DNA from: Billgrantia saliphila
GTDB taxonomy: Bacteria; Pseudomonadota; Gammaproteobacteria; Pseudomonadales; Halomonadaceae
Direction: 5' to 3'
Assembly: GCF_002930105.1 (NCBI RefSeq)
Contig: NZ_PJRN01000004.1
Location: forward strand, 248,001-312,000
DNA: 64,000 bases
Shown here: positions 24,519-48,418 of the stretch, piece by piece
Layout: each line of letters starts with the position of its first letter
How positions within the stretch are numbered: position 1 is the stretch's first letter
Program-made: the position numbers and the translations under genes
Notes under the pieces: model-generated
Database searches by the model: none
What the model was told of the DNA's origin: nothing
The model's input: the letters and a program-made list of their open reading frames with translations, nothing else

Positions 24519-25418
24519 TCAGGTCCCAAGCTGTTCACCTTCGGAGGAAGTCTCAGCGAGCGTCTCGGCTCGCCGGAGCAGGATGCTCTCCTGCTCCGGT
24601 GTCAGTTTCAGCCCGAACCGCTCATGCAGCACGCCGGCCAGTTCACCGGCAGCGATCTGATGCAGCTCCGGCTCGCTACCCGGCCGGAAGACCTTCAACT
24701 CCAGATCGGTCAGCGCAAGACGTAACTCAGCGCCATTGTGCTGAGCCACGATTCGCCGCACGAAAGGGGACGCAGGATGATGTGACACTAGGTAATTGTA
24801 TTCGGCGAAGTCGGCACGGTAGTAGGGCTCGTCGCTGAACTGGTAAAGATTGAACCAGTCACCGTGCCGCCGATGGCGCAGCAGCCAATACCCCAGCGGA
24901 GAGCGCTCCAGGCGATACTCCCACGGGCCGTGACTCACCTCGTTACCGGCCTCGAGCAGAATTGGCTCTCGCGGTCCGATGTTGCCTACCCCGACATCGA
25001 TCAGCCAGTCGCGGCCAGCCACTTTCACCACCAGCATCGTATGGCCGAGCGGGGTGACCACACGCTCGTCGTCGCCCATCAGCATTCTTGCGCTACGGCC
25101 CTCGACGTCGAAACCAAGCCGATCCAGCACTGTAGCAAACAGTATGTTTTGCTCATGGCAATAACCGCCGCTCCGGCGCCGTACCAACTTGTCCTGAAGG
25201 CTTTCCAGGTCGAGGCGTATTTCGCCACCGGTAATGATTTCAAGATTCTCGAACGGCACCGCGGCGAGATGCGCCTGCTGGAGGGCCTTCAATGTCTCCA
25301 GGCTGGGAGTCAGGTCGCCCCGATAACCGACACGTGCCAGGTAAGCCTCGAGATCGAGCGCCGGAGTCTCCCACCGGGCCGATTCATGGAGTGGATGGTC
25401 AATCGTTTCAGCCTGCAT
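24519..25418 (-). CDS. nat: Arylamine N-acetyltransferase
   Basis: 299 aa. The catalytic triad of the NAT family is visible: Cys87 (RSGGYCHEQN), His126 (GHTML) and Asp141 (DVGVGN). It transfers acetyl from acetyl-CoA to aromatic amines and hydrazines in the cytoplasm. The ATG at 25418 follows AGGAGA. The promoter upstream has a SoxR-type box (see 25485-25515), so the enzyme may be induced by redox-active xenobiotics. Confidence 0.93.
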   Translation of the reverse strand: MQAETIDHPLHESARWETPALDLEAYLARVGYRGDLTPSLETLKALQQAHLAAVPFENLEIITGGEIRLDLESLQDKLVRRRSGGYCHEQNILFATVLDRLGFDVEGRSARMLMGDDERVVTPLGHTMLVVKVAGRDWLIDVGVGNIGPREPILLEAGNEVSHGPWEYRLERSPLGYWLLRHRRHGDWFNLYQFSDEPYYRADFAEYNYLVSHHPASPFVRRIVAQHNGAELRLALTDLELKVFRPGSEPELHQIAAGELAGVLHERFGLKLTPEQESILLRRAETLAETSSEGEQLGT

Positions 25419-25484: not shown

Positions 25485-25515
25485 AGGCTAATACCTCAAG
25501 CTAACCTCAGGTAAA
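25485..25515 (-). promoter_or_regulatory. SoxR-type promoter of nat
   Basis: On the minus strand: -35 TTTACC (25510-25515), a 19-bp spacer, and -10 TAGCCT (25485-25490). The spacer and -35 overlap CCTGAGGTTAGCTTGAGG (box 25494-25511), which on the plus strand agrees with the E. coli soxS box CCTCAAGTTAACTTGAGG at 15 of 18 positions. The 19-bp spacer and box placement are those of MerR-family promoters. Confidence 0.75.
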
Positions 25516-25578
25516 GGAAACAAATTTCTATCGTGCTCATAGCCATTCACGATGCCGAATGGCACGCCGACTTTTCTC

Positions 25579-25633
25579 TCAACCACTTGGTTGACAAAGA
25601 GGCATGGAGCCACTATTTAAACCATATGGTTGA
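25579..25633. promoter_or_regulatory. Two ArsR-type operators at the arsR start
   Basis: Palindrome TCAACCACTTGGTTGA at 25579-25594 (7-bp arms, 2-bp centre) and TAAACCATATGGTTGA at 25618-25633, centres 39 bp apart. Both fit AACCA-NN-TGGTT. The second contains the ATG of the arsR gene (25626), so binding would block its translation start region and transcription. Confidence 0.75.
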
Positions 25634-25997
25634 ACATAACGAAACACACCTGGACCGGATCTTCCACGCCCTGGCCGATCCGACCCGACGCGCCCTGCTC
25701 CAACGACTGACGGCCGGCGAGTGCAAGGTCGGCGAGTTGGCCGAGCCGTTCGACATCTCGCTGGCTGCCGTTTCCAAGCATGTGCGCGTGCTGGAGCAGG
25801 CGGGGCTGGTAAAGCGACGTATCGAAGGGCGCGCCCATTACTGCCGGCTGCAGCCGGAGCCGCTGGTTGAGGCGGAGCGGTGGCTAAGCTTCTACGAAGG
25901 TTTCTGGAGCCAGCGCTTAAATGCGCTGGAAGCGGCCCTGAAGGCGGAACTTGATGGCACGTCACCAAAGGAGGAAAAAGCGGATGGACGACGCTGA
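25626..25997 (+). CDS. ArsR-family regulator of an SRPBCC/VOC/DUF899 operon
   Basis: 123 aa. A winged helix-turn-helix of ArsR type: RIFHALADPTRRALLQRLTA, then ISLAAVSKHVRVLEQAGLVK and RRIEGRAHYCRL. It has no metal-binding Cys motif (ELCVCDL), as in the SdpR-like branch often paired with AHSA1 genes. Start 25626 is preferred by homology and lies inside an operator; the frame is open from 25533. It overlaps the next gene by 14 bp. Confidence 0.9.
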   Translation: MVEHNETHLDRIFHALADPTRRALLQRLTAGECKVGELAEPFDISLAAVSKHVRVLEQAGLVKRRIEGRAHYCRLQPEPLVEAERWLSFYEGFWSQRLNALEAALKAELDGTSPKEEKADGRR

Positions 25998-26535
25998 TTA
26001 CGGCCGGCCAATCGCCGAGGACAGCATCCGCTTCGAGCGCCTGTTGCCGGGGCCCATCGAGCGGGTCTGGGCCTATCTCACCGAATCCGACAAGCGTGGC
26101 CTGTGGCTCGCCCCCGGTGCCATGGAAGCCCGCCAGGGCGCCTCCTTCGCTCTACGCTTCCACAACACCGCGCTGACGCCCGACAGAACGCCGCCAACCG
26201 AGCGATTTCGTCACTACGATGGCAGCTTCACGACGTATCACAAGGTGCTGCGCTACGAGCCACCCCACGTGCTCACCTGGACCTGGGGCGGTGGCGACGA
26301 AGCCCCTTCGGAGGTCACCTTCGAACTCAGCGAGGCCGGCGATCAGGTGCGCCTGGTCGTGACGCACCGCCGCCTCGCCGATGACGACACCCGGATCACC
26401 GTGGCCAGCGGCTGGCATACCCATCTCACCATTCTCGAGGACGTGCTGCAGAGCTACCGCCCTGCCCCTTTCTGGCCCACGTTCGAACGCCTGGAGGAGG
26501 AGTACCGATGCCGCATCATGTCACCCCGCAACTGA
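25984..26535 (+). CDS. SRPBCC (AHSA1-like) domain protein
   Basis: 183 aa. The START-like fold shows in SIRFERLLPGPIERVWAYLT, PPHVLTWTWGG and the C-terminal GWHTHLTILEDVL. Members bind hydrophobic ligands. The SD AGGAGGAAAAAG is in the arsR 3' end, and the start overlaps the arsR stop. Second gene of the four-gene operon 25626-27628. The pairing of ArsR with AHSA1 is very common in proteobacteria; the role of the ligand is unknown. Confidence 0.9.
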   Translation: MDDADYGRPIAEDSIRFERLLPGPIERVWAYLTESDKRGLWLAPGAMEARQGASFALRFHNTALTPDRTPPTERFRHYDGSFTTYHKVLRYEPPHVLTWTWGGGDEAPSEVTFELSEAGDQVRLVVTHRRLADDDTRITVASGWHTHLTILEDVLQSYRPAPFWPTFERLEEEYRCRIMSPRN

Positions 26536-26927
26536 TGTTCGAAGGCAATGCCGAGCAGGCCATGCACTTCTATGTCTCGCTGTTCGACGATTCCGACATC
26601 GTCCGGCTCGAGCGTTATGGCCCCGAAGCACCGGATAGGGAAGGCAGCATCAAGCAGGCCGAATTCACCCTGGCGGGTCGGCGCTATACTTGTATCGACA
26701 GCCACATAGCGCACCCTTTCACGTTCACCCCTTCGATATCGTTGTTCGTCGAGTGCGACAGCCGTGAGGAGTTCGAGCGCCTACTCGAGCAGCTATCGGA
26801 ACAGGGTGAGACGCTGATGCCACCAGACGACTACGGCTTCAGCGAACGCTTCGCCTGGCTCAATGACCGCTTCGGCGTGTCGTGGCAGCTCAACCTGGCC
26901 CGAGCTTCTGTGGAGACGCGACAATGA
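26508..26927 (+). CDS. VOC family protein, PhnB-like
   Basis: 139 aa. HHVTPQLMFEGNAEQAMHFY is the N-terminal signature of the PhnB/3-demethylubiquinone-methyltransferase-like VOC group, and RFAWLNDRFGVSWQLNL closes the domain. It overlaps the SRPBCC gene by 28 bp and the DUF899 gene by 4 bp (ATGA), so the four genes are translationally coupled. Despite the Pfam name, no methyltransferase activity is implied. Confidence 0.9.
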   Translation: MPHHVTPQLMFEGNAEQAMHFYVSLFDDSDIVRLERYGPEAPDREGSIKQAEFTLAGRRYTCIDSHIAHPFTFTPSISLFVECDSREEFERLLEQLSEQGETLMPPDDYGFSERFAWLNDRFGVSWQLNLARASVETRQ

Positions 26928-27628
26928 CGCCCCCAATCGCCCTGCCGCCCATCGTTTCCCAAGCGGAGTGGCAGGCCGCTCTCGAATCACAGATCGCCCG
27001 CGAGAAGGCCCACACGCGCGAGCGCGATAGACTGAACGCCGCTCGCCGGCGGCTGCCGATGGTCGAGGTGCGCCCGGATTACGTCTTCGAAGGGCCGAAG
27101 GGCCCGGTCACCCTGGTCGATCTCTTCGAAGGTCGGCGCCAGTTGATCGTCTACCACTTCATGTTCGGCCCCGATTGGGAGGCCGGCTGTGACGGCTGCT
27201 CGTGGGTGGTCGATGCCATGACTCATCCCGCGCACCTGCATGCCCGCGACACCACGCTGGCGCTGGTCTCGCGGGCGCCGCGAGAGAAGCTTGAGCGCTA
27301 CCGCCAGCGCATGGGCTGGCAACACCCGACGTGGTACTCGTCCCAAGGCAGCGATTTCAACCGAGACATGGGCGCGACGACCTGTTGCGATGCCCCTGAT
27401 GCGGACCGCGGCGAGCGCCACGGTATCAGTGTTTTCCTGCACGATGGCGAACGGGTGTTTCGTACCTACGCCACCGGCAAGCGAGGCGTTGAGTACCTGG
27501 GCAGCCTGTGGACCTATCTGGACCTGACGCCTTACGGCCGACAGGAAAGCTGGGAGGATTCACCGCAAGGCTGGCCGCAGACGCCGCCCTACGTGTGGAA
27601 CCGACGCCATGACGAGTACGAGGCATGA
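26924..27628 (+). CDS. DUF899 (thioredoxin-like) family protein
   Basis: 234 aa. Family hallmarks: PPIVSQAEWQAALESQIARE, LIVYHFMFGPDWEAGCDGCS, HPTWYSSQGSDFNRDMG and DLTPYGRQESWEDSP. The GCDGCSW segment gives a CxxC-like pair in a thioredoxin-like fold. Function of the family is not established; a redox role is plausible. It is the last gene of the ArsR operon, with no terminator in front of the next, oppositely oriented gene. Confidence 0.92.
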   Translation: MTPPIALPPIVSQAEWQAALESQIAREKAHTRERDRLNAARRRLPMVEVRPDYVFEGPKGPVTLVDLFEGRRQLIVYHFMFGPDWEAGCDGCSWVVDAMTHPAHLHARDTTLALVSRAPREKLERYRQRMGWQHPTWYSSQGSDFNRDMGATTCCDAPDADRGERHGISVFLHDGERVFRTYATGKRGVEYLGSLWTYLDLTPYGRQESWEDSPQGWPQTPPYVWNRRHDEYEA

Positions 27629-46341: not shown

Positions 46342-48231
46342 TCACGACTCCACGCCCAGCGCCCGGTCGCTGCGCTCGGCGTCCTCGTCGAGGTCCAACG
46401 CCAGGAACCCCCCGGACTGCCGGCGCCACAGCGAGGCATAGAGGCCATCCTGGGCAAGCAGCTCACGGTGGGTGCCGCTCTCGACGATGCGCCCCTCGTC
46501 GATCACCACCAGGCGGTCCAGCATGGCGATGGTCGACAGGCGATGAGCGATGGCGATGACCGTCTTGCCCTCCATCAGGGTATAGAGCTGCTCCTGGATC
46601 GCCGCCTCGACCTCGGAGTCGAGCGCCGAGGTGGCCTCGTCGAGCACCAGGATCGGCGCGTTCTTGAGCAGCACCCGGGCGATGGCGATACGCTGGCGCT
46701 GGCCGCCGGAGAGCTTGACGCCGCGCTCGCCGACGTGGGCATCCAGCCCTCGACGACCTTCGAGATCCACCAGTTCGTCGATGAAGCTGTCGGCGTGGGC
46801 GCGGCGTACCGCCTCCAAGATCTCCTCTTCGCTGGCGTCGGGGCTGCCGTAGCGGATGTTGTCGCGCACCGAGCGATGCAGCAGCGAGGTGTCCTGGGTG
46901 ACCATGCCGATCTTCTGGCGCAGCGACTCCTGAGTGACCCGGGAAATGTCCTGACCATCGATCAGGATGCGCCCGCCCTCCAAGTCGTAAAAACGCAGCA
47001 GCAGGTTGGCGAGGGTCGACTTGCCGGCCCCCGAGCGGCCGATCAGCCCCACCTTCTCGCCCGGGGCGATGTTCAACGTGAGGCCATCGAACACCCGATT
47101 CGTCTCGCCGTCCGGACGGGCGTAGCCGAAGCGCAACGCGTCAAAGCGAATCTCGCCACGGGGGACCGTGAGCGCGGTGGCATCGGGTGCGTCCTTGATC
47201 GCCGGTTCGCGGGCGATGGTGTTGATGCCGTCCTGCACCGTGCCGATGTTCTCGAACAGTCCCGCCACTTCCCACAGAATCCAGTTGGACATGAAGCGGA
47301 TGCGCATCACCAGGGCGATGGCGACGGCGATGATGCCGAGCGACACGGCCTCGAGATACCAGGCGCCGATGGCAACCGCCGCCACCCCGGCCAGCAGCAG
47401 TGAGTTGAGCAGAGTCAGGCTCACGGTAAGACCGGTAGCCAGGCGCATCTGGCGATGCACGGTGACCATGAACTGCTCCATGGCCTCGCGGGCGTAGGCC
47501 TGCTCGCGCCGGGTGTCGGCAAACAGCTTGATGGTCTGGATGTTGCTGTAGCTGTCGACGATACGCCCGGTCATCACCGCGCGGGCGTCGGCCTGCGCCA
47601 TGGAGACCCGCCGCAAGCGCGGCACGAAGTACCACAGGATGGCCACGTAGCCGGCCAGCCATACCACCAGCGGCAGCATCAGCCAGGGCTCGGCCTGGCC
47701 CATCACCAGCATGGCGCCGGCGAAATAGACCAGCACGTAGACCATGAGGTCCAGCAGCTTGGTGACCGTCTCGCGGATCGCCAGGGCCGTCTGCATCACC
47801 TTCTGCGAGACGCGCCCGGCGAACTCGTCCTGATAGAACGCCAGGCTCTGGCTGAGCATGTGGCGGTGCGCCAGCCAGCGGCCGATCATGGGATAGTTGC
47901 CGAAGATGCCCTGGTGCATCACCAGCGACTGGAACAGTGTGAGCAGCGGCAGGCCAATCGCCACCAGTGCCGCCATGCCGGCCAGGCGCCAGCCATACTC
48001 GGCGAAGAACCCCTCACGCTCGGCATCCGAGAGCCAGTCCACCAGGTCGCCCATGTAGCTGAAGAACACTACCTCGGCGGCCGAGACCAGGGCCGTCAGC
48101 AGTGCCAGTGCCGCGAGCAGCGGCAACAGCGGACGCGAAAAATGAAGAACGAAGGCGGCGAGCCCACGCGGCGGTGTCTCGGTCTGCCCCGAAGGATAGG
48201 GATTCACCAGGGTTTCGAAAAAACGAAACAT
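46342..48231 (-). CDS. ABC exporter, fused permease-ATPase (MsbA/MdlB-like)
   Basis: 629 aa. N-terminal six-helix TM domain (about residues 30-320), then the ATPase with Walker A GRSGAGKST, signature LSGGQRQRIAIARVLL, Walker B ILVLDEATSALD and His switch IAIAHRLST. A half-transporter that should work as a homodimer exporting lipids or drugs. Start ATG 48231 is chosen by homology (MFRFFETLVNPYP). The promoter upstream carries a SoxR box and the 12-5-12 repeat in the leader. Confidence 0.94.
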   Translation of the reverse strand: MFRFFETLVNPYPSGQTETPPRGLAAFVLHFSRPLLPLLAALALLTALVSAAEVVFFSYMGDLVDWLSDAEREGFFAEYGWRLAGMAALVAIGLPLLTLFQSLVMHQGIFGNYPMIGRWLAHRHMLSQSLAFYQDEFAGRVSQKVMQTALAIRETVTKLLDLMVYVLVYFAGAMLVMGQAEPWLMLPLVVWLAGYVAILWYFVPRLRRVSMAQADARAVMTGRIVDSYSNIQTIKLFADTRREQAYAREAMEQFMVTVHRQMRLATGLTVSLTLLNSLLLAGVAAVAIGAWYLEAVSLGIIAVAIALVMRIRFMSNWILWEVAGLFENIGTVQDGINTIAREPAIKDAPDATALTVPRGEIRFDALRFGYARPDGETNRVFDGLTLNIAPGEKVGLIGRSGAGKSTLANLLLRFYDLEGGRILIDGQDISRVTQESLRQKIGMVTQDTSLLHRSVRDNIRYGSPDASEEEILEAVRRAHADSFIDELVDLEGRRGLDAHVGERGVKLSGGQRQRIAIARVLLKNAPILVLDEATSALDSEVEAAIQEQLYTLMEGKTVIAIAHRLSTIAMLDRLVVIDEGRIVESGTHRELLAQDGLYASLWRRQSGGFLALDLDEDAERSDRALGVES

Positions 48232-48387: not shown

Positions 48388-48418
48388 AGCCTAAGACCTC
48401 AAGTTAAGTCGAGGTCAA
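48388..48418 (-). promoter_or_regulatory. SoxR-type promoter of the ABC exporter-RidA operon
   Basis: Minus strand: -35 TTGACC (48413-48418), 19-bp spacer, -10 TAGGCT (48388-48393). The box on the plus strand, CCTCAAGTTAAGTCGAGG (48397-48414), matches the E. coli soxS box CCTCAAGTTAACTTGAGG at 16 of 18 positions. Spacer length and box position are exactly those of SoxR targets. Confidence 0.8.

Follow-up and report, generated by a model that had tools for sequence, protein, structure and literature searches.

A predicted SoxR-dependent promoter at an arylamine N-acetyltransferase gene of Billgrantia saliphila and its recurrence among relatives

The nat1 and soxR loci of Billgrantia saliphila

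The window considered here, a stretch of 64,000 nucleotides from a single contig of Billgrantia saliphila, carries an arylamine N-acetyltransferase (NAT) gene, nat1, and a soxR gene that is divergent from a gene for an ABC exporter (Table 1). The nat1 reading frame is intact, and its product resembles NATs of solved structure (2bsz, 3d9w, 4nv7, and others) over most of the protein. The predicted triad of NAT1, Cys87-His126-Asp141, lies at the aligned NAT triad positions, and these residues presumably have the catalytic roles familiar from the NAT literature. Against the N-hydroxyarylamine O-acetyltransferase equivalog NF011621 the protein scores 139.6 bits, below the cut-off of 493, and is thus not filed as that equivalog. 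By family the nat1 product is an arylamine N-acetyltransferase, for which acetyl-CoA-dependent arylamine acetylation is the predicted activity. The closest named NAT loci, those of Billgrantia bachuensis and Halomonas socia, are 86% identical. On the other side of the nat1 promoter an ArsR-type regulator gene, near which two palindromes are found (about 25580-25594 and 25620-25633), heads an apparent operon (25533-27628) that continues with AHSA1-type, 3-dmu-9_3-mt/glyoxalase-fold, and DUF899 genes.

Table 1. Genes and predicted promoter elements of the nat1 and soxR loci (window coordinates).
Feature	Position	Strand	Evidence or match
nat1 (nat), arylamine N-acetyltransferase, 299 aa	24519..25418	-	PF00797, 201.7 bits (gathering score 22.8)
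nat1 promoter, -10-like hexamer TAGCCT	25485..25490	-	19 bp from -35
Predicted SoxR box of nat1, CCTGAGGTTAGCTTGAGG	25494..25511	-	15/18 to soxS box
nat1 promoter, -35-like hexamer TTTACC	25510..25515	-	exact match
ArsR-type regulator gene	25533-25997	divergent from nat1	PF12840, PF01022
ABC exporter, MsbA-like membrane and ATPase domains, 629 aa, ATG 48231	46342..48231	-	PF00005, PF00664
ABC exporter promoter, TTGACC-N19-TAGGCT	48388..48418	-	
Predicted SoxR box between soxR and ABC exporter	48397..48414	-	2 mismatches to soxS box
soxR, 149 aa	48628..49077	+	TIGR01950, 231.4 bits (cut-off 116.9)

The first-pass annotation of this DNA proposed a SoxR-type promoter, TTTACC-N19-TAGCCT, at 25485..25515, overlapping an 18-bp box with 15 matches to the soxS box. 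The promoter is found exactly so on the minus strand, and the count is right, since the box departs from the reference at 3 of its 18 positions; its left half-site carries two substitutions. The 18-bp reference used for matching is what we take to be the soxS box of E. coli, and it is consistent with the E. coli box given in a study of Stenotrophomonas maltophilia (PMC4411124). The nat1 dyad overlaps the -35 element and fills the 19-bp spacer, the arrangement demanded of a SoxR-activated promoter, and the overlong spacer of 19 bp is present at both the nat1 and the ABC exporter promoters. The -10 element is far from TATAAT and is separated by 66 bp from the ATG at 25418. Shuffling the window 100 times at the dinucleotide level produced no match to the nat1 promoter motif.

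The same annotation pointed to an ABC promoter with the same -10 style (TAGSCT) 23 kb away. That promoter is real, but the gene next to it was overlooked as soxR. Residues 8-148 of its product align to E. coli SoxR (2zhg), and the four [2Fe-2S] cysteines at positions 116, 119, 121, and 127 (C-X2-C-X-C-X5-C) match those of the E. coli protein. This is a true soxR by sequence, and activation of its product by redox-cycling compounds is predicted. The predicted box lies between soxR and the divergent exporter gene.

Searching the 4.34 Mb genome with the 18-mer, at up to 3 mismatches, returns three places, the soxR/ABC region, nat1, and C43:207450, the last of them without promoter geometry; at genome scale this is a weak test. 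The 27-bp promoter scaffold TTKACCTNNANNNNNNTTNAGGTNNTA is a strong one. At up to 2 mismatches it finds three sites, soxR/ABC, nat1, and C42:206071, while the reversed pattern finds none in the same genome and the scaffold itself none in three simulated genomes of the same size and with the dinucleotide make-up of the window. The scaffold was defined after boxes in relatives had been inspected, and conservation and co-occurrence with SoxR therefore bear most of the weight. Downstream of C42:206071 lie a gene for an NADPH-FMN reductase (PF03358) and then a second NAT gene, nat2, whose product is 40% identical to NAT1, so that all three scaffold sites serve a pump or a NAT unit. The earlier annotation was correct about the nat1 box but missed both the second nat of the genome, which likewise lies behind a box, and the FMN reductase that often shares an operon with nat. 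Elsewhere in the genome (G000:C47:187807-191127), TTGACCCTGTAGTGGCTACAGGGTGT is found near another MerR-type gene and resembles a metal operator of the CadR/PbrR type.

Distribution of SoxR, NATs, and the predicted box

SoxR scores above the cut-off in 36 of the 90 genomes of the genus sample, and a NAT was found in 38 (query NAT1 of the window, E ≤0.001). The latter comprise 24 genomes with nat1 orthologues, defined as 62% identity or more, and 15 with more distant NATs, the B. saliphila genome having both. All 24 nat1 genomes possess SoxR. A NAT is present in 35 of the 36 SoxR-positive genomes (G078 is the exception) versus 3 of the 54 SoxR-negative ones (G044, G045, G056), and a scaffold site with at most one mismatch in every SoxR-positive genome versus 3 of the 54 others (G028, G034, G044). 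Such sites number 104 in the SoxR-positive and 3 in the SoxR-negative genomes; the reversed pattern yields 2. Fisher tests that ignore relatedness give 2.5e-20 for NAT with SoxR and 5e-22 for the box with SoxR.

Because genomes of one genus are not independent, a tree of rpoB was built for a test of pairs. Of the 90 genomes it covers 85; rpoB gave no match in G056, G062, and G069 and only fragments in G063 and G082, so that one SoxR-negative genome with a NAT (G056) and one SoxR-positive genome with a NAT (G063) are not placed on it. On this tree soxR changes 12 times. Across 11 independent pairs that differ in soxR, NAT differs in the same direction in 10, in the opposite direction in none, and is unchanged in 1 (median p 0.002). 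For nat1 alone the same test is not significant (median p 0.06). In 20 of the 24 nat1 genomes no more than about 60 kb of a shared contig separates nat1 from soxR, and joint gain and loss may thus partly reflect linkage. Linkage alone does not explain the box, since in G011 and G017 about 1.86 Mb of a single contig lies between the two genes.

A search for the 19-bp spacer motif in front of the nat genes of related species had been put forward as a check on the first proposal, and the motif is kept in all 24 nat1 units. The box directly precedes nat1 with 0-1 mismatch in 19 units and with 2 mismatches in three (G006, G017, G049); in the remaining two (G032, G027) it is followed by an FMN reductase gene and then by nat1. 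The other NATs of SoxR-positive genomes form 12 units, all of them behind a box. Seven of these have an FMN reductase gene after the box (G000, G052, G047, G051, G081, G018, G038), and five have no detected reductase between box and gene (G063, G015, G022, G023, G026); in the last four of the five about 390-410 bp separate the box from the aligned start, with the reading frame extended upstream. A box therefore stands before 36 of 36 NAT units in SoxR-positive genomes of the genus, directly or via the reductase, and before none of the 3 NATs in SoxR-negative ones. The nat1 copy of G067, counted among the 19 direct units with 0-1 mismatch, is truncated and in two pieces; it lacks about residues 43-199, yet its box (L096, G067:C1:776500-780500) is a full match to the scaffold.

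Upstream regions of 22 of the 24 nat1 genes were aligned, the two reductase operons being excluded. The -10 element is TAGCCT or TAGGCT in all 22, and the -35 element is TTTACC in 18 and TTGACC or TTGATA in 4. Columns of the right half-site and the -10 element are at least 95% conserved; the left half-site is less conserved, and most columns between the -10 element and the start codon are not conserved. The TTAA centre is altered in some nat1 boxes.

Several lineages carry soxR beside the NAT unit itself. Four genomes of the genus (G047, G051, G081, G038) have soxR in divergent orientation to the reductase-nat2 unit, and the box separates the two. In Vreelandella nigrificans (L017) soxR is directly divergent from nat1 and the box has 2 mismatches, and in a metagenome-assembled genome of the Ectothiorhodospiraceae (L016) soxR is divergent from an FMN reductase-nat1 unit with a weak box (4 mismatches). 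The V. nigrificans genome (G465) has two SoxR genes about 12 kb apart on one contig. Among 12 named NAT loci, all from genomes with SoxR, the box has 0-1 mismatch in six, 2 in two, and 4 in L016, where it precedes the reductase. The NAT of an Acinetobacter (L021) has only a 3-mismatch site, and no box stands at those of Luteimonas and Nocardiopsis (L019, L020), though all three genomes encode SoxR. Three loci (L010, L013, L015) are the same contigs as loci of the genus sample and are not independent of it.

Outside the genus the link between SoxR box and NAT is patchy. In a class sample of 369 genomes, with a below-cut-off NAT match in G390 left out, SoxR is present in 24, a NAT over the cut-off in 28, and both in 6 including B. 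saliphila itself (p 0.019 for co-occurrence with the latter excluded). Two of the five other genomes with both have a 1-mismatch box at the NAT (G260, G377), which in G260 lies between the NAT and a divergent soxR; G363 has only a 3-mismatch site, and G345 and G279 have no scaffold site at the NAT. Of the 22 class-sample genomes with a NAT and without SoxR, 14 were scanned; none has the scaffold near the NAT, and two (G175, G090) have a scaffold site anywhere. In a phylum sample of 398 genomes a NAT occurs in 66, and contexts were examined for 30, one being the B. saliphila genome. A box with 0-1 mismatch within 1 kb upstream is found in 5 of the other 29 (G757, G709, G697, G806, G810), the last three of which belong to one genus; the best site has 2 mismatches in G733, 3 in G664 and G842, and 4 or more in the remaining 21. 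The best value of the reversed pattern in these contexts is 4 mismatches. In G709, which lies outside the class, soxR is divergent from the NAT gene with the box between.

Control of nat

Placement of nat in the SoxR regulon, as first suggested, is strongly supported by this comparative evidence, the 24 conserved boxes and the presence of SoxR in all 24 genomes in particular, and SoxR very probably activates nat directly through the predicted box. SoxR, encoded 23 kb away, would bind the dyad that lies in the nat promoter between its -35 and -10 elements. At SoxR-activated promoters an overlong spacer keeps transcription low, and oxidized SoxR relieves this silencing. The 19-bp spacer would likewise keep the nat promoter nearly silent until oxidized SoxR distorts the DNA, so that nat would be switched on directly once redox-cycling compounds oxidize the iron-sulphur cluster of the regulator.

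Promoters of the MerR family have this layout in common, and the likeness to the soxS box might reflect no more than the half-sites and 19-20 bp spacers typical of MerR regulators in general, with nat under a regulator of the family other than SoxR. In the B. saliphila genome the SoxR model also gives five weaker matches of MerR type, the altered TTAA centres of some nat1 boxes would fit such a regulator, and three SoxR-negative genomes keep a scaffold site. Those five MerR-type genes, however, have nothing closer to the scaffold than 5 mismatches within about 1.5 kb, the scaffold follows SoxR across the genus (36/36 versus 3/54 genomes), and in several lineages the divergent neighbour of the NAT unit is soxR, identified either through the family model or through identity. 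We rejected another MerR protein as the regulator on this co-occurrence and adjacency, and we consider such control improbable.

Smaller still is the probability that the divergent ArsR-type repressor (25533-25997) is the main control of nat, with the SoxR-like box secondary or inactive. The gene is divergent from nat, with two palindromes; these palindromes, however, are placed about 90-135 bp upstream from the -10 element of nat and closer to the ArsR gene, and the box is also kept where the upstream neighbour is soxR or an FMN reductase gene instead. Palindrome position and the boxes kept away from any ArsR neighbour led to the rejection of this arrangement. A chance box before a constitutive nat is equally remote. 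At 3 mismatches the 18-mer also occurs elsewhere in the genome, as C43:207450 illustrates, but shuffles and simulations contain no match, the columns of the right half-site and -10 element are conserved where most of those from there to the start codon are not, and a box stands at all 36 NAT units of SoxR-positive genomes in the genus; a chance match was rejected on these grounds. Direct activation by SoxR accounts for the box more readily than any of the three.

Acetylation and the SoxR response

Bacterial arylamine N-acetyltransferases are well studied, and their natural role is often unclear. Outside the enterics, SoxR regulons are known for pumps and oxidoreductases, and early bioinformatic surveys of SoxR boxes exist. 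To our knowledge no NAT has been described as a direct target of SoxR. Among the open-licence literature matches listed, no statement of direct SoxR control of a NAT was found; a prior mention is possible. SoxR of Streptomyces coelicolor directly controls six genes, for an ABC transporter, a flavoprotein reductase, oxidoreductases, an epimerase/dehydratase, and a monooxygenase, according to excerpts of PMC4146615. As in that regulon, boxes in the genus studied here precede genes for ABC exporters, FMN reductases, and short-chain dehydrogenases (SDRs). NAT units, the commonest partner of the box besides the neighbour of soxR itself, are an addition by comparison, and the word acetyltransferase is absent from the text of the S. 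coelicolor study. In S. maltophilia, excerpts of PMC4411124 describe soxR divergent from the efflux gene mfsA, with a box between the -35 and -10 elements that matches at 14 of 18 positions, a spacer of 19 bp, and loss of SoxR binding on mutation. The architecture resembles that described here; unlike nat, the target is an MFS pump and not an acetyltransferase. In E. coli the arylamine N-acetyltransferase gene nhoA falls in one co-expression module with soxS, soxR, sodA, and fpr, as given in part of PMC11446759. The scaffold search finds no SoxR box at nhoA, and any SoxRS link there would be indirect.

All three predicted SoxR sites of the B. saliphila genome precede pump or NAT genes and the pairing recurs in relatives, which makes it likely that acetylation joins export as a defence and that these bacteria neutralize redox-cycling poisons by acetylating them in addition to exporting them. 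In the proposed scheme NAT would cap arylamine groups on aromatics that are redox-active, such as aminophenols, aminoquinones, and aminophenazines, and would in this way curb the redox cycling of these compounds. Reduced forms would come from the NADPH-FMN reductase encoded with nat2, and parent compounds or products would leave the cell through the ABC exporter. Binding and activation by SoxR, the inducers, the substrates, and the order of steps are all matters that we infer from sequence, and we infer acetylation after a reductase step, followed by export through the pump, more weakly than activation of nat by SoxR. For the whole pathway of reduction, acetylation, and export we hold the chances to be about even. 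A broader proposal is equally balanced between holding and failing: acetylation may be a standing arm of a SoxR response, composed of FMN reductase, NAT, and ABC pump, that disarms redox-cycling aromatic amines, has recruited at least two distinct NAT subfamilies, recurs in no fewer than two Pseudomonadota classes, and gives a physiological reason for many bacterial NATs. If true, the conserved direct link would identify a signal that induces NATs, would predict as their substrates redox-active arylamines, perhaps antibiotics of microbial origin such as phenazines or phenoxazinones, and would add a conjugation step to SoxR responses.

Other genes also lie behind boxes in SoxR-positive genomes of the genus. 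Full-length products of eight box targets other than NAT were assigned by Pfam, one example each; those from SoxR-positive genomes are a second ABC exporter, an FMN reductase, a metallo-beta-lactamase-fold protein, an ABM-domain protein, an SDR, DoxX, and a membrane-fusion protein of RND type. MFS names among the targets rest on resemblance only, and two shortened stretches matched no Pfam family. The DUF2938 example (Pfam) comes from a SoxR-negative genome, G044 (L126), where the scaffold precedes a gene for a small predicted membrane protein, as it does in SoxR-negative G034 (L121); another MerR-type regulator may act at these two sites. The metallo-beta-lactamase-fold protein recurs behind boxes of the genus (L112, L143, L149, L151, L158, L160, L119), and in G028 (L119) the box before its gene remains while SoxR was not found in that genome. 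Convergent with nat1, or near it at about 700-1700 bp, a gene for an SDR-family dehydrogenase has a SoxR-type box of its own at several loci of relatives (L011, L012, L024, L034, and others).
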